In this document: piece after piece, positions 37,919-55,607 of the stretch | Layout of the letters: the number at the start of each line of letters is the position of its first letter | Position numbering within the stretch: the stretch's first letter is position 1 | NCBI GenBank assembly: GCA_028687425.1 | Contig: JAQUAD010000013.1 | Span: 1-55,607, forward strand | DNA from: Sideroxydans sp. | Lineage (GTDB): Bacteria > Pseudomonadota > Gammaproteobacteria > Burkholderiales > Gallionellaceae | Length of the DNA stretch: 55,607 nt | Reading direction: 5' to 3' | Program-made: the position numbers and the translations under genes | Notes under the pieces: generated by a model | The model's input: the letters and a program-made list of their open reading frames with translations, nothing else | Database searches by the model: none | Told to the model about the DNA's origin: nothing

Positions 37919-37945
37919 ATATCGGCAGATTTTGGCGAAGGTTAA
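37919..37945 (-). promoter_or_regulatory. Sigma-28-like promoter B1 of protein B
   Basis: TTAA, 15 bases, GCCGATAT on the minus strand. One mismatch in each box relative to TAAA-N15-GCCGATAA. About 31 bases before the ATG of protein B, the same spacing as promoter A to its gene. Confidence 0.65.
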
Positions 37946-37986
37946 CACCTGGCTGGACACAATGCGATGCTGACCCATTTGATGAT

Positions 37987-38013
37987 ATATCGGCAGATTT
38001 TGACTTAGCTTAA
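37987..38013 (-). promoter_or_regulatory. Sigma-28-like promoter B2 (upstream copy)
   Basis: TTAA, 15 bases, GCCGATAT, the second copy exactly 68 bases further upstream. It would give a transcript with a longer leader through copy B1. Confidence 0.55.
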
Positions 38014-38064
38014 CACCCGGCCAGACATAATACGTAGCTGACCCATTTGATTTTCATTGACCGG

Positions 38065-38460
38065 TTACTCCGCACGATGACAGACAGCCTCTATACGGTT
38101 GCCAAACGGGTCATAGAGGAAGGCACCGAAGTAGTTAGCGTGATAGTACGGACGGAGGCCGGGCATACCATTGTCCTTGCCGCCGTTAGCAAGACCGGCA
38201 AAATAGAAGGCAGCAACTTGGGCTCGTGCAGTAGCTTTGAAACACCAATGGCGCTTTTCGTCGAAATTGGCCGTAGTTGATTCATAGACTGCCAAGCAGG
38301 AATGAAAATCTTCAATGTCGTCACATCGTACGCCATAACCAAGTGCGCCAGGTCGGTCATAAACTTTGGCGATTCCAAGCGCGGCCATCACCGAGTCGTA
38401 AAATGGACGGGCTTTCTCGGTGCTTGGAACGGAAATGGATACGTGATCGAGTACGAGCAC
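38065..38460 (-). CDS. VOC-family protein (glyoxalase/dioxygenase fold)
   Basis: 131 aa with one vicinal-oxygen-chelate domain. VLDHVSISVPSTEKARPFYD at the N-terminus supplies the first metal-ligand His; HANYFGAFLYDPFGNRIEAVCH gives the second His and the typical C-terminal pattern with a Glu ligand. Substrate unknown. The start is GTG without a good Shine-Dalgarno, so somewhat uncertain. The sigma-28-like duplication begins 14 bases beyond its stop. Confidence 0.82.
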   Translation of the reverse strand: MLVLDHVSISVPSTEKARPFYDSVMAALGIAKVYDRPGALGYGVRCDDIEDFHSCLAVYESTTANFDEKRHWCFKATARAQVAAFYFAGLANGGKDNGMPGLRPYYHANYFGAFLYDPFGNRIEAVCHRAE

Positions 38461-38544
38461 AGGAGGTCTAGCATAGGGATGAAGGACTGCGCGCTCTTGC
38501 GCAACCCCTATTGAATGCCGGGTTAGCCCCTAACACATGAATCC

Positions 38545-39132
38545 TCATTGCTTACGATCCATGGGATTCTCTCGAGTGGCTTGCTGCCCGAGCTGTTGGG
38601 CGAGACCGATGAGAATCCCTTCGGGCCCCCGGATGTAACAAAGCCGGTAGATGCCTTCATAATTGACAACTTCATCGACCAACGTCGCACCAAGCTTGCT
38701 GAGCCGGACGAGAGTATCGTCGATGTCCTCGACTGTGAACATTACACGCATATATCCCAGCGAGTTCACGGAAGCTGAGCGGTGATCTGACTCGATGGCG
38801 GGGGCGTCGAAGCGAGTGAGCTCGATGCGGCTGTGACCGTCAGGTGTGCGCAGCATTGCGATTTCCACGCGCTGGCCGTGCACTCCGGTGACACGGCCAG
38901 CCCATTCACCATCGATAGGCATGCGACCTTCGAGGGTAAGGCCGAGTTCAGTGAAAAACTGAATTGCGGCATCAAGGTCTTTCACCACGATGCCGACGTT
39001 GTCCATACGCTTGACTTTCATGATATCTCCTTGATGTCTAACCGACGTCTGTGCTGCCTCAATTTTCGGGGACGGCATTGATGTACAGCCTGAAGTGAGT
39101 AGTACGAACAGAATTGCATATAGGTTCTTCAT
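38545..39132 (-). CDS. VOC-family protein with in-frame lipoprotein leader
   Basis: 195 aa from the upstream ATG. Residues 1-16 look like a lipoprotein signal (MKNLYAILFVLLTSGC), followed by a linker and, from residue 38, a full VOC domain (MKVKRMDNVGIVVKDLDAAI; RIELTRF; GPEGILIGLAQQL). Two starts each have a good Shine-Dalgarno: ATG 39132 (AGGAGT) giving a secreted lipid-anchored form, and ATG 39021 (AAGGAGAT) giving the ordinary cytosolic VOC protein that most relatives resemble. Either the leader is a recent fusion with a broken lipoprotein gene or two products are made. Substrate unknown. Confidence 0.78.
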   Translation of the reverse strand: MKNLYAILFVLLTSGCTSMPSPKIEAAQTSVRHQGDIMKVKRMDNVGIVVKDLDAAIQFFTELGLTLEGRMPIDGEWAGRVTGVHGQRVEIAMLRTPDGHSRIELTRFDAPAIESDHRSASVNSLGYMRVMFTVEDIDDTLVRLSKLGATLVDEVVNYEGIYRLCYIRGPEGILIGLAQQLGQQATRENPMDRKQ

Positions 39133-39305
39133 GTGTACTCCTGATTGTCGGTAAGAGCGCTCGAATTCACCGGCGCAAAACGAAACGCAGACGAAACGGG
39201 TCAGCGTCGTTATTCCTTATCAGTCACTGACTTTCGCACGCTGAATCCTAGCCTGACTCCCCTTACCCTTCCAAGCAGAAAAAAGGCCTATATATTTTTC
39301 CAAAT

Positions 39306-41817: not shown

Positions 41818-44304
41818 ATGAAACGCATGTTATTCAATGCGACGCAACCGGAAGAACTCCGCGTCGCCATCGTGGACGGTCAGAAGCTGGTCGACCTCGA
41901 TATCGAAACAGCCGGTAAAGAATCTCGCAAGAGCAACATCTATAAAGCAGTCATCACCCGCCTCGAGCCCTCTCTCGAAGCCTGCTTCGTCGAATACGGT
42001 GGCACCCGCCACGGTTTCCTCCCCTTCAAGGAAGTCGCACCGCAGTATTTCCAGCCCGGCACCACCAGCCGCTCCGGCATCAAGGAAGCGCTGAAGGAAG
42101 GCCAGGAACTGCTGGTACAAGTCGAAAAGGACGAGCGCGGCAACAAGGGCGCAGCCCTCACCACCTATATCAGTCTGGCTGGTCGTTATGTGGTGCTGAT
42201 GCCGAACAACCCGAACGGCGGCGGCGTATCGCGCCGCATCGAAGGCGAAGACCGCAACGAGCTGCGCGATACGCTGGCGCAGATCGACGTACCCAAGGGC
42301 ATGAGCATCATCGCCCGCACCGCAGGCATCGGCCGCAATGCCGAAGAACTGCAGTGGGACCTGAACTACCTCAAACAACTGTGGGACGCCATCGAAGGCG
42401 CTTCGCAGTCCGAGAAGGCCCCTTCCCTGATCTATCTGGAAAGCAGCCTGGTGGTGCGCGCCATCCGCGACTACTTCAACCCGGACATCGGCGAAATTCT
42501 GGTCGACACCGACGACATCTTCGAACAGGCGCAGGCCTTCATGAGCACGGTGATGCCGGACCACGTGAACCGCATCAAGCGTTATCACGACGACGTGCCG
42601 CTGTTCTCCCGCTTCCAGATCGAACACCAGATCGAATCCGCGCATGCGCGCGAAGTGCGTCTGCCTTCCGGCGGCGCCATCGTGATCGACCACACCGAAG
42701 CGCTGACCGCGATCGACATCAACTCCGCACGCGCCACCAAGGGCACGGACATCGAATCGACCGCCTTCAACACCAATCTGGAAGCCGCCGAAGAGATCGC
42801 GCGCCAGTTGCGTCTGCGCGACCTGGGTGGCCTGATCGTGATCGACTTCATCGATATGGAATCGAGCAAGAACCAGCGCGCCGTGGAAGACCGCCTGCGC
42901 GATGCGCTGCACTTCGACCGTGCGCGCATCCAGACCGCGAAGATCTCGCGCTTCGGCCTGCTGGAACTGTCGCGTCAACGTCTGGCCCCCAGTCTGGAAG
43001 AAGGCAACCACACTACTTGCCCGCGTTGTAACGGCATCGGCCACATCCGCGGCACCGAGTCTTCCGCTTTGAACATCCTGCGCATCATCCAGGAAGAAGC
43101 GATGAAGGACAGCAGCGCAGCCATCCACGCGCAAGTGCCGGTAGACGTCGCCACCTTCCTGCTGAACGAGAAGCGCGCCGACATCAATCGCATCGAGCAG
43201 CGCTTCAAGGTGCGTGTGATGCTGATCCCGAACCCGCACATGGAGACACCGCACTACTCGGTGAACCGTCTGCGTCTGGACGACATCACGCCGGATCACC
43301 TGCAGGCCAGCTACAAGCAGGTCGTGGCACCGGAAGAGACCAATCCTGTCGCTGCCAAGCAAGAGAACAAGGTCGCGCAGCGTCCGCAAGCCGCCGTGCG
43401 CAGCATCACCCCGACCCAGCCCGCACCGAAGCATACCGAGAAGGAAGAGAAGAAGACTTCCCTGTTCGGTTCGCTGTTCGGCTGGCTGTTCGGCAGCGGC
43501 GAAAAAGAAGAGAAGAAGGCAGAACCTGCCCGCAAGGGAGGCAACCGCAACAATGGCCGTCGCGAACGTGGCGACAAGCGCCGTGACCGCGGTGAGCGTG
43601 GCGAACGCAACGAAAACGGCAAGAAGGCACGCCGTGATGAAGCACCGCGTCCAGAAGCCAACGACAAGGAACAGCAAGGCAATCGCAAGGATCGCCAGCC
43701 GCGTCCGCCTCGTCCGCCCAAGGAAGAAAACAAGCCGGTACTGGAAACAGCGCCAGCCAATAAGCCGGAACAGCAGGCTCAGGAAGGACAGCCGCGCGAA
43801 GGTGGTCGCAAGCGCGGTCGTCGCGGCGGTCGCCGTGAACGTGAGCGTCGCGAGCAACTGGATACGGTGGAAACAAGCAACGCTGCAGTCTCCACACAAG
43901 CGGCACCTGCACCGGTTGCACATGAGACCGCAACACCGGCACGCCTGAAGCCTTCCGAATATGTGGCTTATCCGGCCGGCATGTCCCGCCCGGTGAAACC
44001 GACCGAGATCGTGTGCTTCCCGACCAGCAAGCCTGTCGTCGCAGCCCCGGTTGAAATGCAAGTTGCTGCCCCGGCCGTTGCTGTTGCCGAGCCTGCCGTC
44101 GCAGACAAGGCACCGATCGCAGTCGATCTGGGCGCCGCAGGCCTGACCATGATTGAGACCGACCCGAACAAGGCCGCCTCCGTGGTTGTACCGGCACCGG
44201 AAATGACCGCTCACGCGCCGCGTCGCCGTCAGCGTCCGCGCGAGATCTACACCATCGAAAACAGCGAACCGCTGCAACAGGTGGAGACCCGTTCAGGTAA
44301 CTGA
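41818..44304 (+). CDS. rne: Ribonuclease E
   Basis: Main endoribonuclease of RNA decay and rRNA/tRNA processing, at the inner membrane (828 aa). Catalytic half: S1 domain (about 37-125), 5' sensor and RNase H-like parts, DNase I-like catalytic part with metal-binding Asp in TAIDINSARA and IDFIDM, and the zinc link CPRC (Cys401, Cys404). The C-terminal 330 residues are disordered, with Lys/Glu-Arg-rich RNA-binding blocks (GGNRNNGRRERGDKRRDRG) and Pro/Ala repeats, the scaffold for the degradosome; an amphipathic segment (SLFGSLFGWLFGSG) near residue 550 likely binds the membrane. Ends at a strong terminator. Confidence 0.96.
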   Translation: MKRMLFNATQPEELRVAIVDGQKLVDLDIETAGKESRKSNIYKAVITRLEPSLEACFVEYGGTRHGFLPFKEVAPQYFQPGTTSRSGIKEALKEGQELLVQVEKDERGNKGAALTTYISLAGRYVVLMPNNPNGGGVSRRIEGEDRNELRDTLAQIDVPKGMSIIARTAGIGRNAEELQWDLNYLKQLWDAIEGASQSEKAPSLIYLESSLVVRAIRDYFNPDIGEILVDTDDIFEQAQAFMSTVMPDHVNRIKRYHDDVPLFSRFQIEHQIESAHAREVRLPSGGAIVIDHTEALTAIDINSARATKGTDIESTAFNTNLEAAEEIARQLRLRDLGGLIVIDFIDMESSKNQRAVEDRLRDALHFDRARIQTAKISRFGLLELSRQRLAPSLEEGNHTTCPRCNGIGHIRGTESSALNILRIIQEEAMKDSSAAIHAQVPVDVATFLLNEKRADINRIEQRFKVRVMLIPNPHMETPHYSVNRLRLDDITPDHLQASYKQVVAPEETNPVAAKQENKVAQRPQAAVRSITPTQPAPKHTEKEEKKTSLFGSLFGWLFGSGEKEEKKAEPARKGGNRNNGRRERGDKRRDRGERGERNENGKKARRDEAPRPEANDKEQQGNRKDRQPRPPRPPKEENKPVLETAPANKPEQQAQEGQPREGGRKRGRRGGRRERERREQLDTVETSNAAVSTQAAPAPVAHETATPARLKPSEYVAYPAGMSRPVKPTEIVCFPTSKPVVAAPVEMQVAAPAVAVAEPAVADKAPIAVDLGAAGLTMIETDPNKAASVVVPAPEMTAHAPRRRQRPREIYTIENSEPLQQVETRSGN

Positions 44305-44320
44305 TCGGCTTACTCGCCTC

Positions 44321-44356
44321 AAATAAAAACGCCCGGCATGCCGGGCGTTTTTATTT
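44321..44356. terminator. Bidirectional terminator after rne
   Basis: AAATAAAAACGCCCGGCATG with its exact complement following: a 36-base perfect palindrome with A and T flanks, serving rne and the convergent small membrane gene. Confidence 0.95.
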
Positions 44357-44370
44357 GCCTGAAAGTTTTC

Positions 44371-44829
44371 CTAACGCCCCAGCTGCATCTCTATCTGTTT
44401 CCGGTTTTCATCGCAGTCAATGTTCGATGTGGGTGCGCTACGGTAGTTGTCTCCCGAGGTCAGCTTGAAACTCAGATAACACTGCTGCGTTTCGGCCTTT
44501 CCCGGACGACCGACTTCAATGCTGTCGATCTGCCCTGTCTCAATATGCAAGGGCGCAAAATTGCTACCCGCGAAATGCAGCGTGACTTGCTGCCCGCTCA
44601 CTTCCGCAGAGGCAAAACTCCCGTACTGCTCCTTGTAGGTAAGGATGCCGAACAACAAATAGAACAGGCAGCCCAGAATGACCGCCGTCGAATTCCGTAT
44701 CTCGGATTTCGTTCCTTCCAGCGATGCCGTCAACAGCACGGTCGTGATCACCACTACCACTGCGCCCCAGAACATGGATATCTGAAAGGCATGCAGCAAC
44801 TCCGCTTCATTTGCGAATTCCAGCAACAT
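44371..44829 (-). CDS. Unknown small membrane protein
   Basis: 152 aa, not recognised. Two hydrophobic helices (AFQISMFWGAVVVVITTVLL about 14-34, and NSTAVILGCLFYLLFGILTY about 46-65) are followed by a beta-rich C-terminal domain of about 85 residues with two cysteines (QQCYLSF, NIDCDENR). Lies one base after the low-molecular-weight phosphatase gene and probably shares its transcript. No function assigned. Confidence 0.72.
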   Translation of the reverse strand: MLLEFANEAELLHAFQISMFWGAVVVVITTVLLTASLEGTKSEIRNSTAVILGCLFYLLFGILTYKEQYGSFASAEVSGQQVTLHFAGSNFAPLHIETGQIDSIEVGRPGKAETQQCYLSFKLTSGDNYRSAPTSNIDCDENRKQIEMQLGR

Positions 44830-44830
44830 G

Positions 44831-45322
44831 TCAGCGTCCCAGTTGCGCGCGGATATGCTTCAGCAAACCGCGCGATGCATCCTCAACGAGATCGAGCACA
44901 TGCTCGAAACCATCTGCACCGCCGAAATACGGGTCGGGGACTTCGCGTTCATTGTGCTGCTCCGCAAACTCGAGGAACAAGCCAAGGTGACTTGGCGCAC
45001 CACGCGGCTGCAAGTCTTGCAGTATCGAAAGATTTGCTTCATCCATCGCCAGCACATAATCGAAACGGGTGAAGTCACCCACCCCTGCCTGACGCCCGCG
45101 CAAGTCGCTCATCTCATAACCGCGAAGCTTTGCTGCCCGCTGGGTGCGAGTATCGGGCGGTTCTCCGATGTGGTAATCGTGCGTGCCTGCCGAGTCGATA
45201 TGAATGACATCCTCCAGCCCAGCTTCTTCCACGTAACGACGGAACACCGCTTCGGCGGTGGGAGAGCGACAGATGTTGCCCATGCAGATAAAAATTACGC
45301 TAATTTTTTCTTTATTTTTCAT
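44831..45322 (-). CDS. Low-molecular-weight protein-tyrosine phosphatase
   Basis: Cytoplasmic phosphatase of 163 aa. P-loop CMGNICRS (nucleophile Cys13, Arg19; Cx5R) at the N-terminus and the general-acid loop VPDPYFGG near the C-terminus are intact. In bacteria such enzymes often dephosphorylate tyrosine kinases of exopolysaccharide export, but no such genes are nearby. I chose ATG 45322 (MKNKEKISVIFICMGN); a GTG 54 bases upstream is in frame but adds non-family residues. Confidence 0.92.
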   Translation of the reverse strand: MKNKEKISVIFICMGNICRSPTAEAVFRRYVEEAGLEDVIHIDSAGTHDYHIGEPPDTRTQRAAKLRGYEMSDLRGRQAGVGDFTRFDYVLAMDEANLSILQDLQPRGAPSHLGLFLEFAEQHNEREVPDPYFGGADGFEHVLDLVEDASRGLLKHIRAQLGR

Positions 45323-45549
45323 GTTGTTGCAATCATTTTTGTCTAAAAAATAGGCGCCTTTTGTTGCATATTGCACCGTTATTATTCAGATAGTTACAGA
45401 GGGTTTTACAAGAGCATGGATGGCTGTCAACGATTTACGTTTACCTGACATGAGTCACGCAAACGAACGACCCCTACCATGCTACCTCGCTAGAATTGTA
45501 TCTCTATTTCCGATCAATCTTTTGAGGCCGAGAAATATAGGAAGATAGG

Positions 45550-45602
45550 GCGACGGACTGTTAATCCGCAGGTCCCTGGTTCGAGTCCAGGTCGGGGAGC
45601 CA
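45550..45602 (+). pseudogene. tRNA-Asn(GTT) 3' fragment, possible att site
   Basis: GCGACGGACTGTTAATCCGC is the anticodon arm of tRNA-Asn (anticodon GTT), followed by an intact T arm (GGTTCGAGTCC), the 3' acceptor strand TCGGGGA and GCCA. The 5' acceptor strand (TCCCCGA) and D arm are absent; upstream sequence is unrelated. Integrases often target tRNA 3' ends and leave such fragments. An antisense frame here (WTRTRDLRINSP) is only tRNA read backwards. Confidence 0.85.
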
Positions 45603-45610
45603 AATAAAAT

Positions 45611-45640
45611 AAGGCCAACAGCAATGTTGGCCTTTCTCAT
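45611..45640 (+). terminator. Terminator after tRNA-Asn fragment
   Basis: AAGGCCAAC-AGCAAT-GTTGGCCTT followed by TCTCATTTT. It follows the tRNA fragment closely, as expected of the tRNA's own terminator. Confidence 0.8.
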
Positions 45641-45641
45641 T

Positions 45642-45674
45642 TTGGTCCGCAATTCTGACCTTGGTCCGCAATTC
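45642..45674. repeat. Short direct repeat
   Basis: TTGGTCCGCAATTC occurs at 45642-45655 and again at 45661-45674, 19 bases apart. The rest of 45675-45868 holds no gene and no clear attC site. Confidence 0.8.
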
Positions 45675-45868
45675 CTCAAAATTGCCAGGTTCAGAGGTGT
45701 CTTTCTATCACCCAACAATTCATCCAAATTTCAAGTGCAATTCAGACACATCTCTGACCATTAACTACGACAGTTTTGGACAGGTGTTCGGCCAAAGCAG
45801 ACACCAGAACATTAGGTGAAAATGACTGCTTTACACAACATACTGGATACTCTCAATGCTTAACCGAG

Positions 45869-47581
45869 CTAAGCTTTCGCCGGTAGCAAAATTGCCTGCC
45901 AACAGATCGTTGGCATAACCTCTATCTGACTCAACGCTTCAAAGTTCCGCAATCCCACATGCCCCGGATTAGTTTCGACGGCAAAGACTATGAGTTCTCT
46001 CGCACGAGGGAAGTCTCCCGCTGCGCGGTTTTGCTCCGCAAGCTTCAGTGTGAATGCTGCTTCAAGTATCCGCCCCAGATCAAACGTATTGGCGTGATGG
46101 CGCTCACGGAAATAGCGTGCGTGAAGCTCTTCCATCACCAGCAAGGTCCAGTCCGGATTTTGGTCTGTCAACAGATGCGCAACCAAACTGATGATGGAAG
46201 GCGTTTCAAAATCACTCTTGTAAGTCTCAATAAGGTTCGGGTACTCCGCGCTGCGAAAATCCTCCGGCGCGAAGAAGTTGAAAAGAAAATAAAGGGCCAA
46301 CAACGGTAAACGCTGGGCGGGCTTTGCTAAACCAGGTACGAGCGTTTCAACCTTCTCCAGCACAGGCCGGATGTCCGTTAGCTTCGCTGACGGCTGCAAT
46401 AAATGGCCAACAACCAGTCCCACAAAAGCAACGAGATATTGTTGAGCGGTGGCGGCTTCGAAACCCAGAGGATTGCCGATCCAATATTGGGGCGCCATCT
46501 GCATGGTCAGCTTCCCTGGCAAATCCATCCGCCAGTCGAACTCTTCCGTTTTCGTTTTCGGTGCTCGCTCCACAAAGGTCTTAATCACGTGACGTGCCAC
46601 TCGCGCAAGGCCTGCAAAGGTCAAGGTGGGCTGTCCATCGATCACCCTAGTCTCGTGGAAGCCGTCAATACCGACGAGAATACGAGGAATCTCCTTGAGA
46701 TGGTGCACGTAGCTTGAGCGGATCGAATAGGCTTGCTTGAGTGCAATCGAAAGGTCGGGCCGACTGACGGCATTGACGGTCGTATGCGTATCTTCGCGGA
46801 AGAAGGCGGGGCCAACATGCGCAAGGGCAAACTCACGGAAGCGCCGCCCAATGGCCACATGTTCGTTGGAGAGGACGGAAGCGCGCACCTTATCTGCGAC
46901 GAGTTCGGGGGTTTCCCCAAGTGCATCGTCAATACGCCGCCGCTTGTTATGGTCGTAATCATCCCAAGTGGGCTCAAATCCATCGAATTTCTGCGCGAGG
47001 GATTCCATCGACATAACAAGTAACGCATAGGCTAAATTCACGTCGTCAGATATACGATGCCCGCCGATGACATAGCGTCGGATGGCCCGCATAGCCCCTT
47101 CGTAGCTCTTTCGCTCCAGTGCCATGAGGTTCGAAACAAAACGCTGGAGGTTCTCAACATCTCCAGGCTGCCAGTGCACAGTGCGATCAAACATTCGGGG
47201 TACGTATTTCTGAGGTACCAAGTCCGCGCCAAGGCTGGGCCGCTCGTTCGCCACCAAACGGCGCGCGAGATCGAGATCGGGCGTGCAAGTGACGTTTAGA
47301 ACGAAGGAAACAATGGCTGCAAAATCATTGATCAAAGTATTTCCGCCTGTCGCGATGATTTCGCCGGAATATGGGCCACCGGGCATCTTCTCGATGCGTT
47401 CAATGATTTCACAGGTGAGCGCTCCCAGCCCATGCACACCGATAACCGGCTGGAGCGAACCAGCCTGTGTTTCGATAAGCTCGTCTTCCCGAAATATTTG
47501 GTAGTTCGTGTAATAGATTGCGCGCCGCAGTGTTTCGTACGCTTCGCATTTAAAGAACTTTCCGGTGCTGATTTGCAACAT
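45869..47581 (-). CDS. Unknown cassette protein with HEPN-like R-x4-H motif
   Basis: 570 aa, no named family recognised. Around residues 180-300 the pattern resembles ApeA/abortive-infection HEPN domains: LAYALLVMSMESLAQKFDGF, a charged linker, then SIRSSYVHHLKEIP with Arg288-x4-His293, the ribonuclease motif of HEPN proteins. The flanking regions are mostly helical with no membrane segment. HEPN RNases act in toxin-antitoxin, CRISPR and phage-defence systems; a role here is inference. It is the last gene of the cassette array; a degenerate attC lies upstream, none is evident after its stop. Confidence 0.7.
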   Translation of the reverse strand: MLQISTGKFFKCEAYETLRRAIYYTNYQIFREDELIETQAGSLQPVIGVHGLGALTCEIIERIEKMPGGPYSGEIIATGGNTLINDFAAIVSFVLNVTCTPDLDLARRLVANERPSLGADLVPQKYVPRMFDRTVHWQPGDVENLQRFVSNLMALERKSYEGAMRAIRRYVIGGHRISDDVNLAYALLVMSMESLAQKFDGFEPTWDDYDHNKRRRIDDALGETPELVADKVRASVLSNEHVAIGRRFREFALAHVGPAFFREDTHTTVNAVSRPDLSIALKQAYSIRSSYVHHLKEIPRILVGIDGFHETRVIDGQPTLTFAGLARVARHVIKTFVERAPKTKTEEFDWRMDLPGKLTMQMAPQYWIGNPLGFEAATAQQYLVAFVGLVVGHLLQPSAKLTDIRPVLEKVETLVPGLAKPAQRLPLLALYFLFNFFAPEDFRSAEYPNLIETYKSDFETPSIISLVAHLLTDQNPDWTLLVMEELHARYFRERHHANTFDLGRILEAAFTLKLAEQNRAAGDFPRARELIVFAVETNPGHVGLRNFEALSQIEVMPTICWQAILLPAKA

Positions 47582-47813
47582 TGTGATGGGATCCCTCGGC
47601 GGTTCATAGGCAGAAAACTACCTGACGTTCAGTTTATCCCTTCGGGCGAAACCAGTCCAAAGCGAGAGTGTCCTGAATTTTGTGTAAAGCTGTCGTTGTC
47701 AGCTTTATAGTCAGACGTCAGCCCAAGGCCGAGAAGGTGACCTGGTCAGAAGTGCGGCCTTAGCGGCCAAACCAATTGATTGCGAATTTGACTGCTTATC
47801 TGATCAGAGCGGA
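47582..47813. other. Gene-free leader of the HEPN cassette with IS-end-like sequence
   Basis: No gene. The segment GTGTCCTGAATTTTGTGTAA (47668-47687) resembles the terminal inverted repeats of IS256-family elements, which suggests a solo IS remnant; this is from memory of that family and only one end is seen. Confidence 0.35.
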
Positions 47814-47886
47814 CATCAACCCTGAGCTAAATGGCGCAAAAGGAGCGCATGTGGAATTCGCGTCCATTTTGAGCGTCGTGTTATGC
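47814..47886 (-). repeat. attC site (degenerate R')
   Basis: On the minus strand R'' GCATAAC follows the gene stop; the arms GCTCAAAATGGACGC and GCGCCATTTAGC pair with two unpaired bases, the extrahelical-base arrangement typical of attC. The closing R' reads GTTGATG, off the GTTRRRY consensus. 73 bases. Confidence 0.65.
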
Positions 47887-47889
47887 ACT

Positions 47890-48486
47890 TCAGCATTCTT
47901 CTAACATCTGAGCGATCTTTATGATTTCGTCCACAATTGGTTGAATCTCATACCTAGTTCCGAGACTCTCAAAGACTCCAACGTCAATGTAGTAAGCGCG
48001 GAATACATGAAGCGGAATCCCGCCAGTGTTAGGAGAGCCGCCTACGTAAAATGGAATCACATGACCGGTGACCGGTTTATCCCACAAGTAGGTATCCAGT
48101 TTCTCGTCAAAGTGCTCTAAGTAGTCCCTGAGCCTTTTGTCTTTCAGCGGACTGTTGTCTTCGAGGCGGAACCTCGCCCGTAGCGTCTTCCCTCTTTCGG
48201 CGTGAAGGTTGTGTTTCCCGTCCCACACCGGCCAGAAATAACGACGGATTGCAGCTGCATTTGTAACTAAGTTTCCTAGATGATCTAGTACTGCACGACT
48301 TAACTCTGCTGTCTGATCGAAGTCGCCTTGAGTGTCATTCGTCATCTGAACGTAGTCGGCGAGATACTCAATCGACTGCATTGCAGATGAGCAGTGAGGC
48401 CTTATGGCTTCGATATAGAAAGCGTAATACATCGGCAACACGCCTCCGTACTCCTTGATCGCTGCTTCTCGATATTCTTCAAGCAT
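47890..48486 (-). CDS. Unknown cassette protein with R-x4-H (HEPN-like) motif
   Basis: 198 aa, no named family. Helical throughout the N-terminal two thirds. The segment KRLRDYLEHFDEKLDTYL (about residues 117-134) contains Arg120-x4-His125, the HEPN nuclease spacing, in a helix of the right character (LRxHxEHFDERLD-type). Residues 141-198 are beta-rich and end in a helix. I start at ATG 48486 (MLEEYREA), because the upstream GTG frame lies inside the attC site. It is a single-gene cassette with attC sites on both sides. Function unknown; nuclease role is inference. Confidence 0.68.
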   Translation of the reverse strand: MLEEYREAAIKEYGGVLPMYYAFYIEAIRPHCSSAMQSIEYLADYVQMTNDTQGDFDQTAELSRAVLDHLGNLVTNAAAIRRYFWPVWDGKHNLHAERGKTLRARFRLEDNSPLKDKRLRDYLEHFDEKLDTYLWDKPVTGHVIPFYVGGSPNTGGIPLHVFRAYYIDVGVFESLGTRYEIQPIVDEIIKIAQMLEEC

Positions 48487-48548
48487 AAGGTGGAAGCGAG
48501 CGGCCTGCGCGGTTTTTTGCACAGATACATTCGACTGAAAGGTTATGC
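48483..48548 (-). repeat. Degenerate attC site
   Basis: R'' GCATAAC (it contains the TAA stop of the upstream gene) and R' CTTATGC (G to C at the first base) are complementary at the ends; the inner arms pair poorly (TGTGC with GCGCA). 66 bases, spaced like its neighbours. The downstream gene's ATG overlaps R'. Confidence 0.5.
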
Positions 48549-49079
48549 GTCTGGCGAGAGTACAGGCAAGGCATCTCTTAGCTCCCCATTGTTCTCAATG
48601 ATCTTGGATTGAACGTACTGGCAATACTCTGCGGGCACGTTGTGCTCATGAAGGCCAGCCAGGATATGACTGACGTAAGCCGCGGAAGTCTTCAAATTGG
48701 CTTGGCGGTTCTTCACGACGTAAGTCGTGGCACGGACGATTACTCCATCATTTGTAACAACGTTAATCATTGCGCGGACGTAGTTTGTGCCTTCACCTTC
48801 AATTGCATCGAGGGACTTTCGACCTTTCTCCTTCACCGTATCACGCGACAACAGGAAGTCAGGGATTTCGTACAGCACGCCGTAGACGGTTCTACCCGCA
48901 TTGCTTGGCAGAAGATCAGCCGCCGCACAGTTGTTCGATTTGCTCCATACGGAAAAGACGAGTTCAAACGGCTCGATGGTCGTTGCGACGCAAACTACCT
49001 TTGCATCACCCGCAAGCCGGTCATCGCTGTTGAGTCGGGCAACCGACATGTTTGAGCCGTACTGGAACACTAGGGCCAT
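48543..49079 (-). CDS. Gamma-glutamylcyclotransferase-like protein
   Basis: 178 aa with the GGCT fold signature: FQYGSNMSVARL at the N-terminus (substrate loop YGSNM) and the predicted catalytic Glu94 in LDAIEGEGTNY. Enzymes of this superfamily release 5-oxoproline from gamma-glutamyl compounds or damaged protein crosslinks; substrate here unknown. GGCT-like genes are frequent integron cassettes. Its stop codon TAA is part of the following attC core. Confidence 0.82.
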   Translation of the reverse strand: MALVFQYGSNMSVARLNSDDRLAGDAKVVCVATTIEPFELVFSVWSKSNNCAAADLLPSNAGRTVYGVLYEIPDFLLSRDTVKEKGRKSLDAIEGEGTNYVRAMINVVTNDGVIVRATTYVVKNRQANLKTSAAYVSHILAGLHEHNVPAEYCQYVQSKIIENNGELRDALPVLSPDA

Positions 49080-49104
49080 TGTGGATTCGTCCGCTGACTA
49101 AGTC

Positions 49105-49168
49105 GCATAACGTTTGAATTCACCGGACTGCGCGGCTTTTCGCGCAGTCCGGTGGGATGATTGGTTGG
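49105..49168 (-). repeat. attC site with 14-bp perfect stem
   Basis: Minus strand: R'' GCCCAAC, arm CACCGGACTGCGCG, loop, arm CGCGCAGTCCGGTG, then GAATTCAAAC and R' GTTATGC. 64 bases. The TxAAAC before R' matches the 50258 site. Confidence 0.88.
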
Positions 49169-49192
49169 GCATCTCGGCCGGTTGCGCACGAT

Positions 49193-50224
49193 TCACGCCT
49201 CGACCAATTGACCATAAGACAACCCGGCAAACTGGTCGAATGATTCAAAGCCCTTTACCCAAACAGAAATGAGAGAGCCGTTCTTAACTACATCATCTGA
49301 ATTCATGGAATCTGGAATGGTGATCGGTTCTATGACAGTCACGGCCTCGCTAGACGTTTTTGTGGCGTACGCTGCTCTATCACGAACACAATCCTCCACC
49401 GCAAGGGCGAAGAAGTAGTTGTTGGATCTGTCGATTACTATTCGTGATTGATTGATTAGGAGGCCAACGTCGAATTCAATTCTTGGAACCATGATGATTC
49501 CGTCATTGACTTCAATGCGTATTGGCACTTTGGGAGCTACGTTTACCTTTCCTCTAAGCAGAAATTTTCCGTCGTGACTACCGTTACGAAAGGCAACAGG
49601 CCGGGATGGGTAGAACTTACCCGCTGACTCTCGAGCTATCCGAGATAGATATTCTTCCAGAGTCTTTTCAGGATCGCCCTCTTTGAACATTGGTGTACGC
49701 GAGTCCGAATCGGGATTGCCAATAGTGATGTTCAGGCTTGGATTGCGTGGCTCAAAGCCCGAGAAGCTGAATGTGCCGAGAAGTTGCGGGTTGCCAACCG
49801 AAACGGAGTTAACTTGAAGAAAAAGGTCTACGACTTTTCCTGGTAGGCCCCATTCTTCGTCAGTAAGTTCTCGAACCGTAAAAAGCTCAATGTTGTCGTG
49901 AGCTGCTTGAGTGACCGCCCCCGACTGAAATCCCTTAGTTGAGAAAATTACGCCCTTTGCAGCACCTACCTCTTTGACTGTGGTTGCTAGCGCATCAACA
50001 TGCAGGCGTTCGACTGCAGTATTCCAATACTTACACTCAACGACGACAAGATGCTCATAAAGCCCTTGTTTATGCCGCAGCAGAACATCAATTTGTCGAG
50101 GCGCGCCAGACCTTCCGACAAGATGCGCATTGTGTTCAACCATTACGTCTCCGGTTTCATGCAACGCGGCCACAAGTTTTTCAAAACCGCCCCAGTCCTT
50201 CACCAATTCGTGGATAGTTTTCAT
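49193..50224 (-). CDS. Mrr-like restriction endonuclease (PD-(D/E)xK)
   Basis: 343 aa. N-terminal nuclease domain (about residues 10-120) with Asp46 in RQIDVLLRHK and Glu63-x-Lys65 in VVVECKYWN, then AKGVIFSTKGFQSGAV, the Mrr/type IV restriction pattern. The C-terminal 200 residues are beta-rich with no recognised domain and may bind DNA or act as a sensor. Start at MKTIHELVKDWGG; an in-frame ATG 39 bases earlier lies near the attC site. Single-gene cassette with clear attC sites at both ends. Target unknown; defence against modified or foreign DNA is inference. Confidence 0.82.
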   Translation of the reverse strand: MKTIHELVKDWGGFEKLVAALHETGDVMVEHNAHLVGRSGAPRQIDVLLRHKQGLYEHLVVVECKYWNTAVERLHVDALATTVKEVGAAKGVIFSTKGFQSGAVTQAAHDNIELFTVRELTDEEWGLPGKVVDLFLQVNSVSVGNPQLLGTFSFSGFEPRNPSLNITIGNPDSDSRTPMFKEGDPEKTLEEYLSRIARESAGKFYPSRPVAFRNGSHDGKFLLRGKVNVAPKVPIRIEVNDGIIMVPRIEFDVGLLINQSRIVIDRSNNYFFALAVEDCVRDRAAYATKTSSEAVTVIEPITIPDSMNSDDVVKNGSLISVWVKGFESFDQFAGLSYGQLVEA

Positions 50225-50257
50225 CTTCTTATATTGCCAAAGGAAAGGCATTCCGAC

Positions 50258-50315
50258 GCCCAACGTTTGAGTTCAGCGGCTGCCGTAGGCAGTCCGCTGG
50301 AACGAATTGTTAGGC
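50258..50315 (-). repeat. attC site, canonical
   Basis: Minus strand: R'' GCCTAAC, AATTCGTTC, arm CAGCGG-A-CTGCC, loop TAC, arm GGCAGCCGCTG, AACTCAAAC, R' GTTGGGC. 58 bases, 11-bp stem with one extrahelical A, the orientation signal used by integron integrases. Confidence 0.92.
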
Positions 50316-50320
50316 ACAAC

Positions 50321-51454
50321 CTACTCTGCATCAGAAGCGCCCACACCTTCATGAAACTCTCTCGCAAGCCTTTGGAGTTCTTCGGGAGTTGGTTCAAAGT
50401 CGCGGAGGGCGGCAATTTCTAGCTCTACCGCTAGGGGCTTTGGAATGCCGGCCTGTTTGCGTACCAGCTCTAAGAGTTCCGCTTCTCTATTAGCCCATTT
50501 GTTGCGACTCTGAGCTAAAGTTATTGTTGGATCGGCCTGTGGGTTTCGGCCAACCTCTGCGTGCCATGCGGCAGCGACGATATCCTGCTTCATGACAGCG
50601 AGTCCTGCGGCGAGATTTTTGCTGTCAGCATCTGGAGTTCCTTTATAAGCGGATGCGGCATAGAAAAAGAAGCTCGGGTGATTTGAAGCAATTACCGACG
50701 TACTCTCGGCTCCAGCTATCTTAATCGTAGCAACGTCGAGAATATTCAGGTTTGTCCCCCATAGACGCGCTATCCACTTTCTAATCGGCAGCCCGAGTGC
50801 AATCAGAGGTCTGCGGTCGCTGCTTTCCGACTGGTCAGAGAAAAGTTCAAGCAGTGGGATTGAATAACTGTCAAATGGCCCTTCATAGATACCAGATTGA
50901 TCAAGATTCTTGCCATCGTTAGCCGGTGCCGCCACTGGAACGATATCCACGATGCATGAGTAGCGTGCAAGCTCTCCTTTCGGCACTCCGTTGAGCGCAA
51001 GCAGTTCCCACCAACGATTAGTCGTCTTGGAATTGAGGTAGTCCTGTTTTTTTATCAGAGAAAGTGGCGGGAAATCCATTATTTCGACAGCCCTCGCATA
51101 TTCGAGCGGCAAGCCAAGTGGAAGCAGAAATTTCCATGTTTCACTCCACTTGCCAGTCTTTTGAAACTCTTGAGCAGCTTCGTGACCAGTCACACCAAGC
51201 TGAAAGAAGTGTTGATACCGTTCGGAAATTGCACTAATGATTTCCGCATCGGTGTGCTCGATTTCTAACGTGACCGTTTCACTTTTTATTTGAACAGTGG
51301 CAGCAAAAGAACCGACAGCCTCACGGGCAAGGCTGTCGGACATATAGTGTTTGATAGTCTCCTCGAGAGATTGCGCCTCGTGTCCATCATTCGGATATGC
51401 GAACAGTGTTGCTGCCTGTGCACGCGGACCAATCGTTATTGTTGCTTTCGCCAT
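50321..51454 (-). CDS. Unknown cassette protein
   Basis: 377 aa, not recognised. No signal peptide or membrane segment. N-terminal 60 residues beta-rich (MAKATITIG; TVQIKSETVTLEIEHTDAEI), a central alpha/beta region (IPLLELFSDQ; FFFYAASAYKGTPDA), and a helical, charged C-terminal part (NKWANREAELLELVRKQAGI). It is the first cassette, between the core site GTTAGGC at 51490 and the canonical attC at 50258. Its AT content is higher than the core genome. No function assigned. Confidence 0.72.
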   Translation of the reverse strand: MAKATITIGPRAQAATLFAYPNDGHEAQSLEETIKHYMSDSLAREAVGSFAATVQIKSETVTLEIEHTDAEIISAISERYQHFFQLGVTGHEAAQEFQKTGKWSETWKFLLPLGLPLEYARAVEIMDFPPLSLIKKQDYLNSKTTNRWWELLALNGVPKGELARYSCIVDIVPVAAPANDGKNLDQSGIYEGPFDSYSIPLLELFSDQSESSDRRPLIALGLPIRKWIARLWGTNLNILDVATIKIAGAESTSVIASNHPSFFFYAASAYKGTPDADSKNLAAGLAVMKQDIVAAAWHAEVGRNPQADPTITLAQSRNKWANREAELLELVRKQAGIPKPLAVELEIAALRDFEPTPEELQRLAREFHEGVGASDAE

Positions 51455-51489
51455 GTGAGTTCCTCAGTTACCTATGCGATGGCTGGTGT

Positions 51490-51496
51490 GCCTAAC
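51490..51496 (-). repeat. Integron core site at the head of the array
   Basis: GTTAGGC on the minus strand, 36 bases before the first cassette ATG, the point where attI or a previous attC would recombine. The sequence before it (CAATAACT) shows no R'' partner within 130 bases, so it is either an eroded attI or a truncated attC. Confidence 0.6.
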
Positions 51497-51938
51497 AGTT
51501 ATTGTAGAGACCCATGGGTCCGGACATTTATTAATATAGAGACAGACACTTTTGGCACCTATCCTTATGAATATTTTTACTAATGAATTCCTGCGTCTCT
51601 TTATCACATTATGAAAAAGGAGACGCGCCACGCGAAAATCATTCAACCACAGTTTTGGGTTTGAACATATATGCCAAAAGATATAGATATTTCGGCCTCG
51701 CCTGGATGGATTGGGATGTCCGGAATGATGTGTAAAACAGTCTCTATTTTCATTTGTTGAAAATGACCGTTACGGCCGAATTACTGTCTGACGCATTCTC
51801 GGCCTGTGCGGACATTTGACATTACATAAAAACAAGGCAGCTATGGCGACCATTTCGGACAATAAAACTGAAAAGAATTTACTGGCCTAGGTCGATGCAG
51901 AATGATTAACACGTAATTCAACATGCATAGCTTAGTAC
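51497..51938. other. AT-rich gene-free spacer with CGGACA repeats
   Basis: 442 bases with no convincing gene and no integrase. It has a 12-base palindrome GACCCATGGGTC (51509-51520) and the hexamer CGGACA at 51521, 51809 and 51856, plus one inverted copy at 51717. Such repeated motifs can be transposase-binding sites at an element end, but I cannot assign a family. Confidence 0.45.
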
Positions 51939-54900
51939 CTATTCAAAACTCTCATCCACCCGGCGGTCTCGCTTTCGATCTTCTTCCATACGATTTTCAA
52001 GATGTACGATTTGTTTCTTGGCCCAATCCACAACCTGCGGATCATTGTGTGTTTGCATTTTCTTCGCCAAACCGAGATAAGGCAGGAGTACGTCAGCGAG
52101 CGAACCAGGCCAGCAACTCGGCTGAAATCGAGATGCGAATATGTCCAGAATCGCAAGCCGGTCGGGAGCCATCTCAAGAATGGTCAGTGCCAATGGGGAC
52201 CATTCAGCTGTATCGTGTTCACCGCTACTTACAGATAAGCGCACTTCCTGCGCTAACAATGGCAAGCGCGCTCTTCGGCTTTTATTGGCCCATGCAATCA
52301 GAATTTCTGGGGTGGCTGCATTCACTGGGCTTTCTTTCCGGTCAAAGCTGAACAGGTAGGAAAGTGAATTCCTATACTGCCTGCTTTGCTTGCGTTCAAG
52401 GAATCCTTTGATGGCGGCAATAGGTTGGAGCCGAAATAACGTTGCCGCTAGCTCGCCATATTGCCTAGCTTCGGTACGATAATCTACCAAAGCGCGGGCT
52501 AAGTTTTTGGCAGTTGCTAATGCCTCCTCATATGCAGCATCGCTACGCAAACAGGCAGTAGCTATCTCATTAATGTGATAGGCATCATTCTGTTTGCTGC
52601 TACGGAAGTTGCACAGTGCCAACAAATGCCGTCCCAATGCCGCAGTTTCTTCATCCACCTCCATTTTGCTGGTCCTGATTGAATGAAGGCGCATCCCAAG
52701 AACATCAACAGCTACTTCATAACCATTTGTCAGCGATGCAACGCCCAGCAGTATCTGTCTGAAATTGGGCGGCGGTATCGGATCAGAAACCCGTCCATAA
52801 AGGCTCCTGAATCGCCTAACCTGCACACGGCCATACGCAATGGAAGAAACAAGCCGTCCTGCACCAGCCTCATCAATTGGTAGAGCAGTTTGAAGCATTG
52901 GAAAATATGCTCCAAGAAGAGGGTCAGTAATAGCGGCATCCAGAAGAATATTTGCTTTAACAGGGGCAAGCTCATTGACGGCTTCAATGAAGCCACACAA
53001 CAAGGAAAGACCGCGGTCGTTTTCCTGGATGCCACCCAGCTCGGCACTGATCTGCTTCCAGATTTGTTCCAAATCTGAAGCTCCTTTTGCCAAGCCCCGG
53101 CCAAAGTGGAAATTCATGTGCCAATTGCCACTTAACAAGTTAGGCAACATGGTGGTCAGAATATCTGCAGATGTCGCCGCTTCAATTCCTAATTCTTCAA
53201 CCGCTTTGTATGTCCGTGTTGTTGCCTGCTCAATGGCTAAATTACTGTCATCCCCCCCGGTCTCCATATCAATCAAGTCAAAAGGAAGGTAACTATCAGA
53301 TAAAACATACGCCTGAATTTTTTGCGCCAATCCTTGTGGTCGCAGTTTAGATTCCAGTTCGCGTGTACGCGCAGCAAAATCAGATGACATCATGTTGATA
53401 TCAAATTGAATGGTCTCGCGAAGTGCGAGCCAGCCATCCGGCCAGCCATCTTGAGAAGAAAAGACTCTCACAACGTTTTCCATTTCAGCGCAGATACCTG
53501 AATGACTCCACAGGACTCTGAAATGACGGGCAAGTATGGTTTTAATTTTATGTGCATGTAGTGAGTTGGCGACAACCTGGTTCTTGAGGAATGTAATAAC
53601 CTCTCTGTACCAAGCTGATATGTCAGCGTTAGTTGCAGGTTCCCATCCAAAATCTCTCGGCCTTGCCCCGAAGCTGAAATCATGGCTTGAGGTGAAATGC
53701 ATCACCTCAAGCATTGCTTCTAGTGCTTCCAGACCTGCACTATTCAGTGCAGCATCTTCAACCTCTAGCAGTTGACGTACTACCTCTAGCCTTTCACCAA
53801 CCAATGCATGTGTGCCAGACAGATATAGATGAAACAGTTCCTTGAAGGAGTTGTTTGCGGAAGTGTGATTGAAATTGGCAGACAATTCAGCAACGTATTT
53901 TGCAAGCAATAGTGCTGCCCGACTGAAATATTGCGGCTCATATGCTATCGATCGCAACAAGCCGCACCATCCCCAACGATTCGAAGTGTTAGTTGGTAAT
54001 AATGCCCTTCCATTTTCCTCCGAAGCGGCGGACTCAATTGCCTGGAGAGCCAGGTCCGGGGCAAGGGGAGCAATGTTCTTGAACAGGGAAAGGCCGAGAG
54101 AATCAAGCTTTGCGGGATTGCCCAGCCGACCCTGAGGACTTAACCAGACCTTTGCAATTTGCTGAGCTTGCTCGCAATCATGCAGATAGCCGAGTCTCCG
54201 GCTAAACGATTTCAGTAGTCTTTCGTTTTGTGAAAATGTGTTGATGAGTGTTTCGACAGGGATGTTGCTTAAGGCATTGCGTGCCAATCGGTTGGCAATG
54301 GCATGTGGCAACACAGCGCGCCATTTGCTCCGCTGCTGTATCAGATCACGGGAACGCAATTCACTAACGTGGCGGAATAATTCCCTGGTTTGAATTTCCG
54401 CCAAATCAGCTAGTGCAGGTAATTCAGCAGTGTCTCCATCAAGCGTTTCACCATCGAATGAATAGACAAGGGCGCAGACTTCCGCTGCACGCATTAAAAC
54501 TTCGCCACTATCCTTACGCTGATTGAATAGCCGCTTGAATAATTCTGAGTCTTTCAGGGTGCCGAGGTTTTCACTGCGCTTTACTGTGCGGGCCAAGGCT
54601 AGGGCAATGCGAGCATTGCCACTTGAAAATTCGGCTACCCGGTGGCGGTCTGCTTGAGACAGATTAGGAGTTAGGCGTTCAAGAATTTCTTCGATAACCT
54701 TATCTGATGCGGGTTCAAGCCGAAATACCTGAGTCTCTTCCGGTACATCGTCTGATACGTCGTATTCGACTGTGATCAGGCTCAGCAAACCGCCTGCGGT
54801 GCTCACTGCCTGCGCCAAGTCCCTGTGAGTTGTTGGATTGCAATTGTCGACCACAAGGATGGCCCTCAATCCATCTGCTGCAAGCTGAGAGATCATGTCT

Positions 54901-55079
54901 CTGGCGGAGGGGGTCGGGGGTTGGTCGCTACCTTGATCTACATAAATGACTATGGAGCAATCAAGCGCATTGCTACCGACTTTTGAGTCAAAGAGTGCTT
55001 GAACCAGACGCGTCTTGCCTGTGCCCGAAAGCCCCACTAGCCGGATGATTCCCCCGGGATTTTCTAGGATTGTGCGCAT
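51939..55079 (-). CDS. Large P-loop (STAND-like) ATPase, N-terminus lost
   Basis: 1046 aa remain. A P-loop NTPase domain starts almost at once: Walker A GLSGTGKT (16-23), Walker B AILVVDNCNP (Asp78), then a winged-helix-like region and about 700 residues of helical repeats, the layout of STAND signalling ATPases used in anti-phage defence. An N-terminal effector domain is expected ahead of the P-loop but is missing: the frame runs seven codons upstream of the ATG and hits TAA inside an IS21-type end (55101-55103). No Shine-Dalgarno is visible. I read it as a 5'-truncated gene; whether it is expressed is doubtful. Confidence 0.75.
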   Translation of the reverse strand: MRTILENPGGIIRLVGLSGTGKTRLVQALFDSKVGSNALDCSIVIYVDQGSDQPPTPSARDMISQLAADGLRAILVVDNCNPTTHRDLAQAVSTAGGLLSLITVEYDVSDDVPEETQVFRLEPASDKVIEEILERLTPNLSQADRHRVAEFSSGNARIALALARTVKRSENLGTLKDSELFKRLFNQRKDSGEVLMRAAEVCALVYSFDGETLDGDTAELPALADLAEIQTRELFRHVSELRSRDLIQQRSKWRAVLPHAIANRLARNALSNIPVETLINTFSQNERLLKSFSRRLGYLHDCEQAQQIAKVWLSPQGRLGNPAKLDSLGLSLFKNIAPLAPDLALQAIESAASEENGRALLPTNTSNRWGWCGLLRSIAYEPQYFSRAALLLAKYVAELSANFNHTSANNSFKELFHLYLSGTHALVGERLEVVRQLLEVEDAALNSAGLEALEAMLEVMHFTSSHDFSFGARPRDFGWEPATNADISAWYREVITFLKNQVVANSLHAHKIKTILARHFRVLWSHSGICAEMENVVRVFSSQDGWPDGWLALRETIQFDINMMSSDFAARTRELESKLRPQGLAQKIQAYVLSDSYLPFDLIDMETGGDDSNLAIEQATTRTYKAVEELGIEAATSADILTTMLPNLLSGNWHMNFHFGRGLAKGASDLEQIWKQISAELGGIQENDRGLSLLCGFIEAVNELAPVKANILLDAAITDPLLGAYFPMLQTALPIDEAGAGRLVSSIAYGRVQVRRFRSLYGRVSDPIPPPNFRQILLGVASLTNGYEVAVDVLGMRLHSIRTSKMEVDEETAALGRHLLALCNFRSSKQNDAYHINEIATACLRSDAAYEEALATAKNLARALVDYRTEARQYGELAATLFRLQPIAAIKGFLERKQSRQYRNSLSYLFSFDRKESPVNAATPEILIAWANKSRRARLPLLAQEVRLSVSSGEHDTAEWSPLALTILEMAPDRLAILDIFASRFQPSCWPGSLADVLLPYLGLAKKMQTHNDPQVVDWAKKQIVHLENRMEEDRKRDRRVDESFE

Positions 55080-55087
55080 GGCCTGAA

Positions 55088-55607
55088 TGTTGAATTGCGT
55101 TTAAATCTGACCCACCAATTGCATTGAATTTTGACCCACCCTTGAATTATCTCTGAACCTTTCAGGTTGTGGATAGTTTTCTGTTTTTACCTCCCTTTCC
55201 GGTTTGCGTTGAGCTGTTTCTGAAGCGGTAACTGTCGTTGCCGGTCTCCACGATGTGGCAGTGATGCGTGAGCCTATCGAGCAATGCCGTTGTCATCTTG
55301 GCATCCCCGAACACGTTACCCCATTCAGCGAAGCTCAAGTTCGTCGTGATCACGAGACTCGTGCGCTCGTAGAGCTTGCCGATGAAGTGGAACAGCAAGG
55401 CACCACCGGCCTGGCTGAACGGCAGGTAGCCCAACTCATCCAGAATCACCAGATCGGCATACATCATCCGGTTGGCGAGCTGCCCCTGCTTGCTAGCCGC
55501 CTTCTCCAGTTCCAGTGCATTCACCAGCTCGATGGTAGAGAAGTAGCGCACACGACGGTGTTGATGCTGAACCGCCTGCACGCCGAGTGCGGTCGCCAGA
55601 TGCGTCT
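55088..55607 (-). mobile_element. IS21-family insertion sequence, end and istB part
   Basis: Begins near TGTTGAATTGCG and carries subterminal repeats of TGACCCACC at 55108 and 55132, characteristic of IS21-type ends, then istB. The element continues past the window edge. The exact boundary is inferred from the TG terminus and the break in the ATPase frame. Confidence 0.7.
55162..55607 (-). CDS. istB: IS21-family helper ATPase IstB (5' end outside window)
   Basis: AAA+ helper of the IstA transposase; the C-terminal 147 residues are visible and the frame stays open to the right edge. THLATALGV just before the edge is the segment that follows Walker A, which itself lies outside the window. Walker [16 protein letters not shown] and the sensor-like [17 protein letters not shown] are intact, as is the [13 protein letters not shown] segment. 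The tail [12 protein letters not shown] is the usual end. Confidence 0.92.

Follow-up and report, generated by a model that had tools for sequence, protein, structure and literature searches.

A four-cassette attC cluster with no adjacent integron integrase gene on an apparent integrative island of Sideroxydans sp.

Introduction

How does a run of integron gene cassettes come to lie where no integron integrase gene adjoins it, and what might such cassettes do for their host? The question is raised by one contig of a draft genome of Sideroxydans sp. (Gallionellaceae; assembly GCA_028687425.1, contig JAQUAD010000013.1, here C5), which was analysed over its entire length of 55,607 bases and is called the window below. 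At 45869-51496 of this window a first-pass annotation had described five co-directional cassette genes separated by attC sites, and had suggested that they may be a sedentary store of defence genes. We found a cluster of attC sites lacking an adjacent integron integrase (CALIN), consisting of four one-gene cassettes on the minus strand from 51454 to 47814. With a probability of about 75%, we think that this CALIN lies on an island integrated by a lambda-type integrase in a gene for a low molecular weight tyrosine phosphatase that neighbours uvrB, that an integron integrase (IntI) loaded it with cassettes, and that at least one of its products likely has a role in phage defence or other conflicts.

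CALINs are documented in other bacteria. The accessible excerpt of PMC9024848 gives totals of 2760 for complete integrons and 2961 for CALINs, with 8 CALINs in 11 Acidithiobacillia genomes. In the part of PMC12444791 that we could consult, CALINs remote from the integrase are reported for about half of the Xanthomonas genomes under study, and one is mentioned from a conjugative plasmid. For one Vibrio cholerae integron, antiphage activity is given for at least 16 of 179 cassettes, and for cassettes of mobile integrons as well, in the excerpt of PMC12409362.

Results

The attC sites were evaluated with a covariance model, R1, in which no site of the window was used. Fifteen candidates adjoining integron integrases in this genome and its relatives were aligned and three long, poorly aligning ones removed, leaving 12 training sites, two from contig C54 of the same genome and 10 from integrase-linked arrays of relatives. 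Of the 12 pairs predicted in the consensus structure of these sites, 6 showed compensatory changes, and R1 was built on a 19-pair structure extended by hand. Searching the full window with filters off gave five clear matches, all on the minus strand, and the four places at which attC sites had been annotated ranked 1, 2, 4, and 5, on the strand of the genes. The sixth-best match reached 11.9 bits (E 0.65), and the plus-strand reading of 50258-50315 scored 9.8 bits.

The two sites on which the first-pass annotation had staked its case were the strongest of the window. The attC of cassette 1 (50258-50315) scored 44.9 bits (E 4.4e-9; genome-wide E 2.2e-7) and that of cassette 2 (49105-49170) 42.5 bits (E 1.8e-8; genome-wide E 8.9e-7), with stems as they had been described, the former carrying one extrahelical base and the latter a perfect 14-bp stem at 49121-49154. 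The attC of cassette 3 (48483-48548) had a degenerate R' and scored 27.2 bits (E 1e-4; genome-wide E 0.005), and that of cassette 4 (47814-47886), the weakest of the four, 19.9 bits (E 0.0068). The cluster has two strong sites, one moderate and one weak. In the genome-wide search, for which 150 of 1306 first-look candidates were scored, the list at E<=1 included the first three of these sites; 47814-47886 was missing from it and is therefore the least certain of the four.

Control DNA scored low. Nine loci that lack an integron integrase, taken from relatives or from this genome (L068-L076, about 146 kb in total), yielded with default filters a single match at E<=1, of 14.9 bits. Dinucleotide-preserving shuffles of the cluster contained two or more symmetric R''..R' sites as strong as those observed in 1 of 500 cases. 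Heptamers of the form GTTRRRY numbered 70 in the window against 77 expected, so an R'-type heptamer alone is uninformative. No Rfam family reached its gathering score in 44000-55607.

In all four cassettes a single gene has an attC close behind it on its own strand, with stop-to-attC distances of 5, 22, -6, and 3 bases for cassettes 1 to 4. With four attC sites of 19.9-44.9 bits, where at least two define a CALIN, and no integron integrase profile match on C5 (TIGR02249 over its cut-off, or Phage_int_SAM_4), the classification as a CALIN stands. Cassette 1 (50321-51454) encodes a protein of 377 amino acids (aa) without a family match. Directly upstream of it, on the same strand, is the heptamer GTTAGGC (51490-51496), a pattern match that is weak alone and that may mark the left junction of the cluster, as an attG-type site or a relic attC. 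Cassette 2 (49193-50224) encodes an Mrr-type PD-(D/E)xK restriction endonuclease (Mrr_cat, E 2.8e-13; 50.4 bits against a curated cut-off of 21) in which the D...ExK catalytic motif appeared intact on inspection only; its start may be ATG 50224, ATG 50251, or an upstream TTG. Cassette 3 (48543-49079), whose stop is overlapped for 6 bases by its attC, encodes a 178-aa gamma-glutamyl cyclotransferase-like protein of the GGACT/AIG2 type (PF06094, E 6.3e-10; PF13772, E 1.1e-12). Both enzyme assignments had been proposed from motifs and are borne out by these profiles. Cassette 4 (47890-48486) encodes a 210-aa R-x4-H protein that is HEPN-like by motif, and its likely predicted start is ATG 48486, within the R' of the preceding attC, rather than GTG 48522.

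The fifth annotated gene, for a 570-aa R-x4-H protein (45869-47581, minus strand), was rejected as a cassette because it has no attC of its own, which reduces the number of cassettes from five to four. It lies 232 bases beyond the attC of cassette 4, and R1 gave no match at E<=10 from 45869 to the left end of the cluster region, that is, none behind this gene. Its product is 83% identical to proteins on two Acidithiobacillus contigs, and the DNA similarity to these, 86% over 45858-47663 of the window, comprises the gene and about 80 upstream bases. There was no attC near the Acidithiobacillus copies; the sole match at E<=1 in both loci had 11.3 bits and lay about 6 kb off, and our search found no literature on integron gene cassettes or attC sites in Acidithiobacillus. 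We therefore take the gene for a neighbour of the cluster that travelled on its own. Homologs were found in one of 158 genomes of the family (its own), in 10 plasmid records, and at three loci in a search of genome contigs; the homolog on a Bradyrhizobium plasmid has neighbours annotated as defence genes.

For both R-x4-H proteins the motif proposed earlier was confirmed and a HEPN profile was not. R and H were invariant in all six aligned sequences of the 210-aa family, 27-37% identical to the cassette 4 protein, and in all seven of the 570-aa family, 25-83% identical to the neighbour, the aligned members having been picked from the best tblastn, genome-contig, and genome search matches. No HEPN family was among the Pfam or PDB sequence matches of either protein. 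Such invariance suggests a functional motif and falls short of proving a HEPN fold. More generally, Pfam gave no family for the 377-, 210-, and 570-aa proteins, NCBIfam nothing over cut-off for the five proteins of the cluster region, and PHROGs no match for the four of these that were scanned. PADLOC gave weak matches to PDC-S02, a candidate family, for the Mrr-type protein.

The cassette proteins differ in how often they recur. The 377-aa protein was found in 3 of the 158 family genomes, its own included (the other two 35% and 28% identical), and in no plasmid record; the 210-aa protein in 2 of 369 genomes of the class, its own included, and in 7 plasmid records; the Mrr-type protein in 13 of the 158 family genomes, again with its own, and in 31 plasmid records, with one plasmid homolog matching at 37% over 96%; and the GGACT protein in 3 plasmid records. 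No locus for cassette 4 or cassette 1 was found on viral contigs. The first-pass annotation had held that homologs kept without attC-like spacers would speak against it, and the comparison was mixed; it concerned homologs of about 27-40% identity that do not represent the same locus as the cluster. A distant cassette 4 homolog in genome G217 has an attC match immediately upstream on the same strand (18.2 bits, E 0.012), and the homolog is followed, by inspection, by another attC-like palindrome and a VOC-like gene, which places the cassette 4 family in a second integron. On the other side, there was no clear attC in 11 loci with plasmid homologs of cassettes 2 and 4 (one match, 13.2 bits, E 0.64), and two cassette 1 homologs also had no adjacent attC.

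The cluster had been called integrase-less, and this holds for the window and does not hold for the genome. An integron integrase of full length (326 aa) is encoded on contig C54 (TIGR02249, 499 bits; cut-off 265). It is the only one over the cut-off in this genome, and attC sites run rightward from it to the contig end, with a gap of 100 N adjoining it. Phage_int_SAM_4 had three matches in the genome, on C54, C82, and C111; the C111 integrase was rejected as a partner of the cluster, as it adjoins a tRNA-Ala gene and is XerD-like by inspection. Further attC sites were found on C78 (4), C66 (2), C24 (1), C12 (3), and C62 (1, weak). Beside dispersed attC sites lie genes for a DUF4145 protein (PADLOC PD-T7-4, E 1.4e-8), an NYN-LOTUS protein, and a trypsin-like protein (C66, 2155-2880 of the locus L096; PADLOC LmuA, E 2.3e-13). 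Among these three, clear cassette status belongs to the trypsin-like gene only, which stands between two attC matches, and its product may be a defence cassette protein of the same genome.

The remaining clear match of the window, third in rank, is a solitary attC outside the cluster (38466-38528, minus strand; 30.8 bits, E 1.4e-5), between two VOC/glyoxalase genes. The surrounding DNA, about 37927-39305, did not align to the loci of the eight relatives compared. Beside this insertion, at 37920-38060, the printed sequence shows a tandem pair of similar stretches, each about 70 bases long (ATCAAATGGGTCAGC...), and about 55 bases at 39245-39298 recur on C37, on C23, and in several relatives, perhaps as an intergenic repeat family.

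The flanks of the cluster point to an integrated island. Beyond the 570-aa gene, the low molecular weight tyrosine phosphatase gene (44831-45322, minus strand; PF01451, E 9.9e-42) is whole in the window, and its 5' end looks replaced by island sequence: its first codons are unlike those of relatives as far as a conserved CMGNIC stretch. In all four relatives examined, uvrB lies directly before the phosphatase gene. In this genome uvrB is on contig C39, where the first codons of the phosphatase gene come next and are followed by divergent sequence, and a lambda-type integrase with Arm-DNA-bind_1 and Phage_integrase domains (C39:5209-6318) reads toward the point of divergence. An integrase at one end and a split target gene, two hallmarks of an integrative island, are present across C39 and C5, two contigs that are not joined. 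The simplest reading would be that an element inserted site-specifically in the phosphatase gene and replaced its 5' end, which would make C39 and C5 the two ends of one island; a rearrangement instead is possible, the two being unjoined contigs. In a limited literature search we found no published insertion into a phosphatase gene of this kind.

When the printed sequences of the two ends were compared, a short piece of the phosphatase gene proved nearly identical in both; a 9-mer word comparison gave only 10-base and 9-base matches, the window stretch compared having ended short of part of the gene. G+C content was 0.568 in bases 1-45000 and 0.498 in 45641-55607. The element apparently gave the phosphatase gene a new start (44831-45376 in the window; C39:5209-8445), with the old first codons on C39. 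Beside the integrase, C39 encodes a NERD-domain protein and a DUF6035/DUF7830-domain protein.

Between the phosphatase and 570-aa genes, a sequence match identified the 3' part of a tRNA-Asn gene with its terminator (45546-45635, plus strand), an incomplete gene that is 88% identical to the intact tRNA-Asn region on C84 and 99% identical over 82 bases to the relative G089 (C9:17756-17837), where a tyrosine integrase precedes it. A recombinase-like open reading frame on C39 is 57.5% identical to one at that G089 locus. We did not accept that the island arose solely by insertion at tRNA-Asn, as the fragment is wrongly oriented for a simple insertion and the phosphatase/uvrB split fits the boundary better, and a composite with a G089-type tRNA-Asn island is possible, judging from these similarities. 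The G089 island itself (L072, 323-9857) ends at its tRNA-Asn fragment and holds, by inspection, a patatin-like and a long E1/JAB-like open reading frame.

On its other side the cluster is flanked by a gene for a PD-Lambda-4_A-like protein (51939-55079, minus strand; PADLOC PDLC03991, E 4.7e-243, profile positions 226-1277 of 1283), which is truncated, the first ~225 profile positions lacking. At the contig end is a fragment of an IS21-type istB gene (55162-55605, minus strand; PF01695, E 1.3e-48), with 173 bits to NCBIfam IS21_help_AAA, below the cut-off of 200. PADLOC gave no match to PD-Lambda-4_B among the six proteins scanned.

Cassettes away from an integrase are widespread in the genus. 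R1 matched at E<=0.01 in 29 of 34 genus genomes, the places counted being among the matches listed, and an intI over the curated cut-off was likewise among the matches listed for 15 of the 34; 14 genomes had both, and 15 had attC sites without such an intI. Because 29 of 34 genomes have attC sites, 15 of these without an intI over the cut-off, scattered cassettes are common in Sideroxydans. We then considered 20 scattered attC loci from 12 genomes, hand-chosen from the listed matches; all 20 retained attC matches, as expected of loci chosen for them. ARAGORN found a tRNA in none of the 20, a motif search matched one of them and missed two of four positive controls, and tblastn with five tyrosine recombinases matched one of the 20 (an IntI fragment) and none of seven controls. 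A general link between scattered attC sites and islands was accordingly not upheld, with tRNA genes at 0 and recombinases at 1 of 20 loci, and an island setting does not appear to be the general rule.

Discussion

The arrangement described above suggests a route by which the cluster may have formed. IntI would recombine folded attC strands; a first cassette would have entered at a secondary site other than attI, and later ones would have joined at the attC sites so formed. The island itself would have entered the phosphatase gene beside uvrB, in its 5' part, by means of a tyrosine integrase of the lambda type. IntI thus probably loaded the cassettes and may still be able to move them, and the resident enzyme encoded on C54 could excise and reshuffle them in trans. 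Given the island-like flanks, the cluster is probably not sedentary, which departs from the earlier suggestion of a sedentary store. Expression of the cassettes would come from an outside promoter or from weak internal ones, and their products may act as nucleases in phage conflicts. For at least one cassette product, phage defence or another conflict function is the most likely role, as far as the protein families can indicate.

Several observations weigh against this account. C39 and C5 are separate contigs and the island is not closed, and insertion into the phosphatase gene leaves the nearby tRNA-Asn fragment unexplained. No empty site is known for the cluster, and the IntI step is a presumed one. 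A promoter scan gave no match on the minus strand and a single one in total, on the plus strand, against 4.9 in shuffles. Neither the two recombinases of C39 nor the integrase of the G089 island nor XerD had a relative within about 10 kb of the 20 scattered loci. As to function, the three cassette proteins other than the Mrr-type one had no PADLOC match, so that none of the four was firmly recognised as a defence protein, and because the plasmid homologs are without an adjacent attC, the families of cassettes 2 and 4 are not bound to cassettes.

The strongest competing view accepts a true CALIN and gives its products functions outside defence, for example in DNA repair, stress responses, or metabolism, and we consider it a serious contender at somewhat less than even odds. 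By its family the cyclotransferase-like gene belongs to metabolism, PADLOC matched only one of the four cassette proteins, and in the V. cholerae integron treated in the consulted part of PMC12409362 some 10% of cassettes, at least 16 among 179, were active against phages; the nuclease-like families and the PD-Lambda-4-like neighbour argue in the other direction. The history of the cluster might also be different. The island may once have held a complete integron whose integrase was lost, for example through an IS21 insertion, leaving the CALIN as its decayed remainder. Two degenerate sites among the four, together with the IS21 fragment and the truncated neighbour on the upstream side, would suit such decay, which we nevertheless hold to be quite unlikely, as the integrase profile matches of the genome are confined to C54 (TIGR02249 over cut-off) and to C54, C82, and C111 (Phage_int_SAM_4), not C5, and by eye no attI was recognised upstream of cassette 1.

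Very improbable, in our judgement, is that the cluster is a piece of the main array misplaced by the assembly onto the wrong contig. The genome is a draft of 119 contigs, C54 has its gap beside the integrase and ends about 0.5 kb beyond its last attC, C78 ends about 0.45 kb beyond an attC, and drafts inflate CALIN counts according to the available portion of PMC9024848; but non-cassette genes flank the cluster on both sides inside the contig, and relatives, too, have scattered attC loci in the interior of long contigs, for example five from G046 and four from G037. We find it hardly credible that the hairpins are terminators or chance palindromes among ordinary accessory genes: a weak fourth site and the poor R' of the third speak for this, yet four model matches stand in order behind four genes on one strand, the shuffles seldom produced two strong symmetric sites, and R1 owed nothing to the window.

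Compared with known systems, the cluster resembles the CALINs of Xanthomonas in that genes lie between two or more attC sites and the integrase is encoded elsewhere (PMC12444791, in the portion available), and differs in adjoining a PD-Lambda-4-like gene on an apparent integrase-bearing island. Like the antiphage cassettes of Darracq 2025, Kieffer 2025, and Getz, summarised in the accessible text of PMC12409362, its cassettes are single genes that include a small restriction-type enzyme; the published ones were challenged with phages, whereas these four are candidates. Insertion of cassettes outside integrons at attG sites (Loot 2024, as cited in the excerpts of PMC12444791 and PMC12690207) would explain scattered small clusters in the presence of an active integrase. 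The upstream neighbour matches PD-Lambda-4_A of the P-loop system PD-Lambda-4 (Vassallo 2022, as listed in the accessible part of PMC10952713) almost end to end, but it is without about 225 N-terminal profile positions and lies at an IS21 fragment.

Conclusions

CALINs, scattered cassettes, and defence cassettes have all been published, and the particular neighbourhood described here is the new part. A bolder proposal, which we regard as doubtful, is that the island works as a cassette shuttle. The attC bay of an integrase-driven defence island would be loaded and unloaded by the resident chromosomal IntI, and the island, integrating by itself and restoring a start to the phosphatase gene on entry, would pass cassettes between the immobile chromosomal integrons of different cells. 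Many phage-defence genes have recently been shown in integron cassettes, while the way in which cassettes pass from one immobile chromosomal integron to another is less clear. Here a cluster of cassettes lies on an apparent integrative island and the genome also encodes a full-length integron integrase, which offers a concrete case in which such cassette transfer could be tested.

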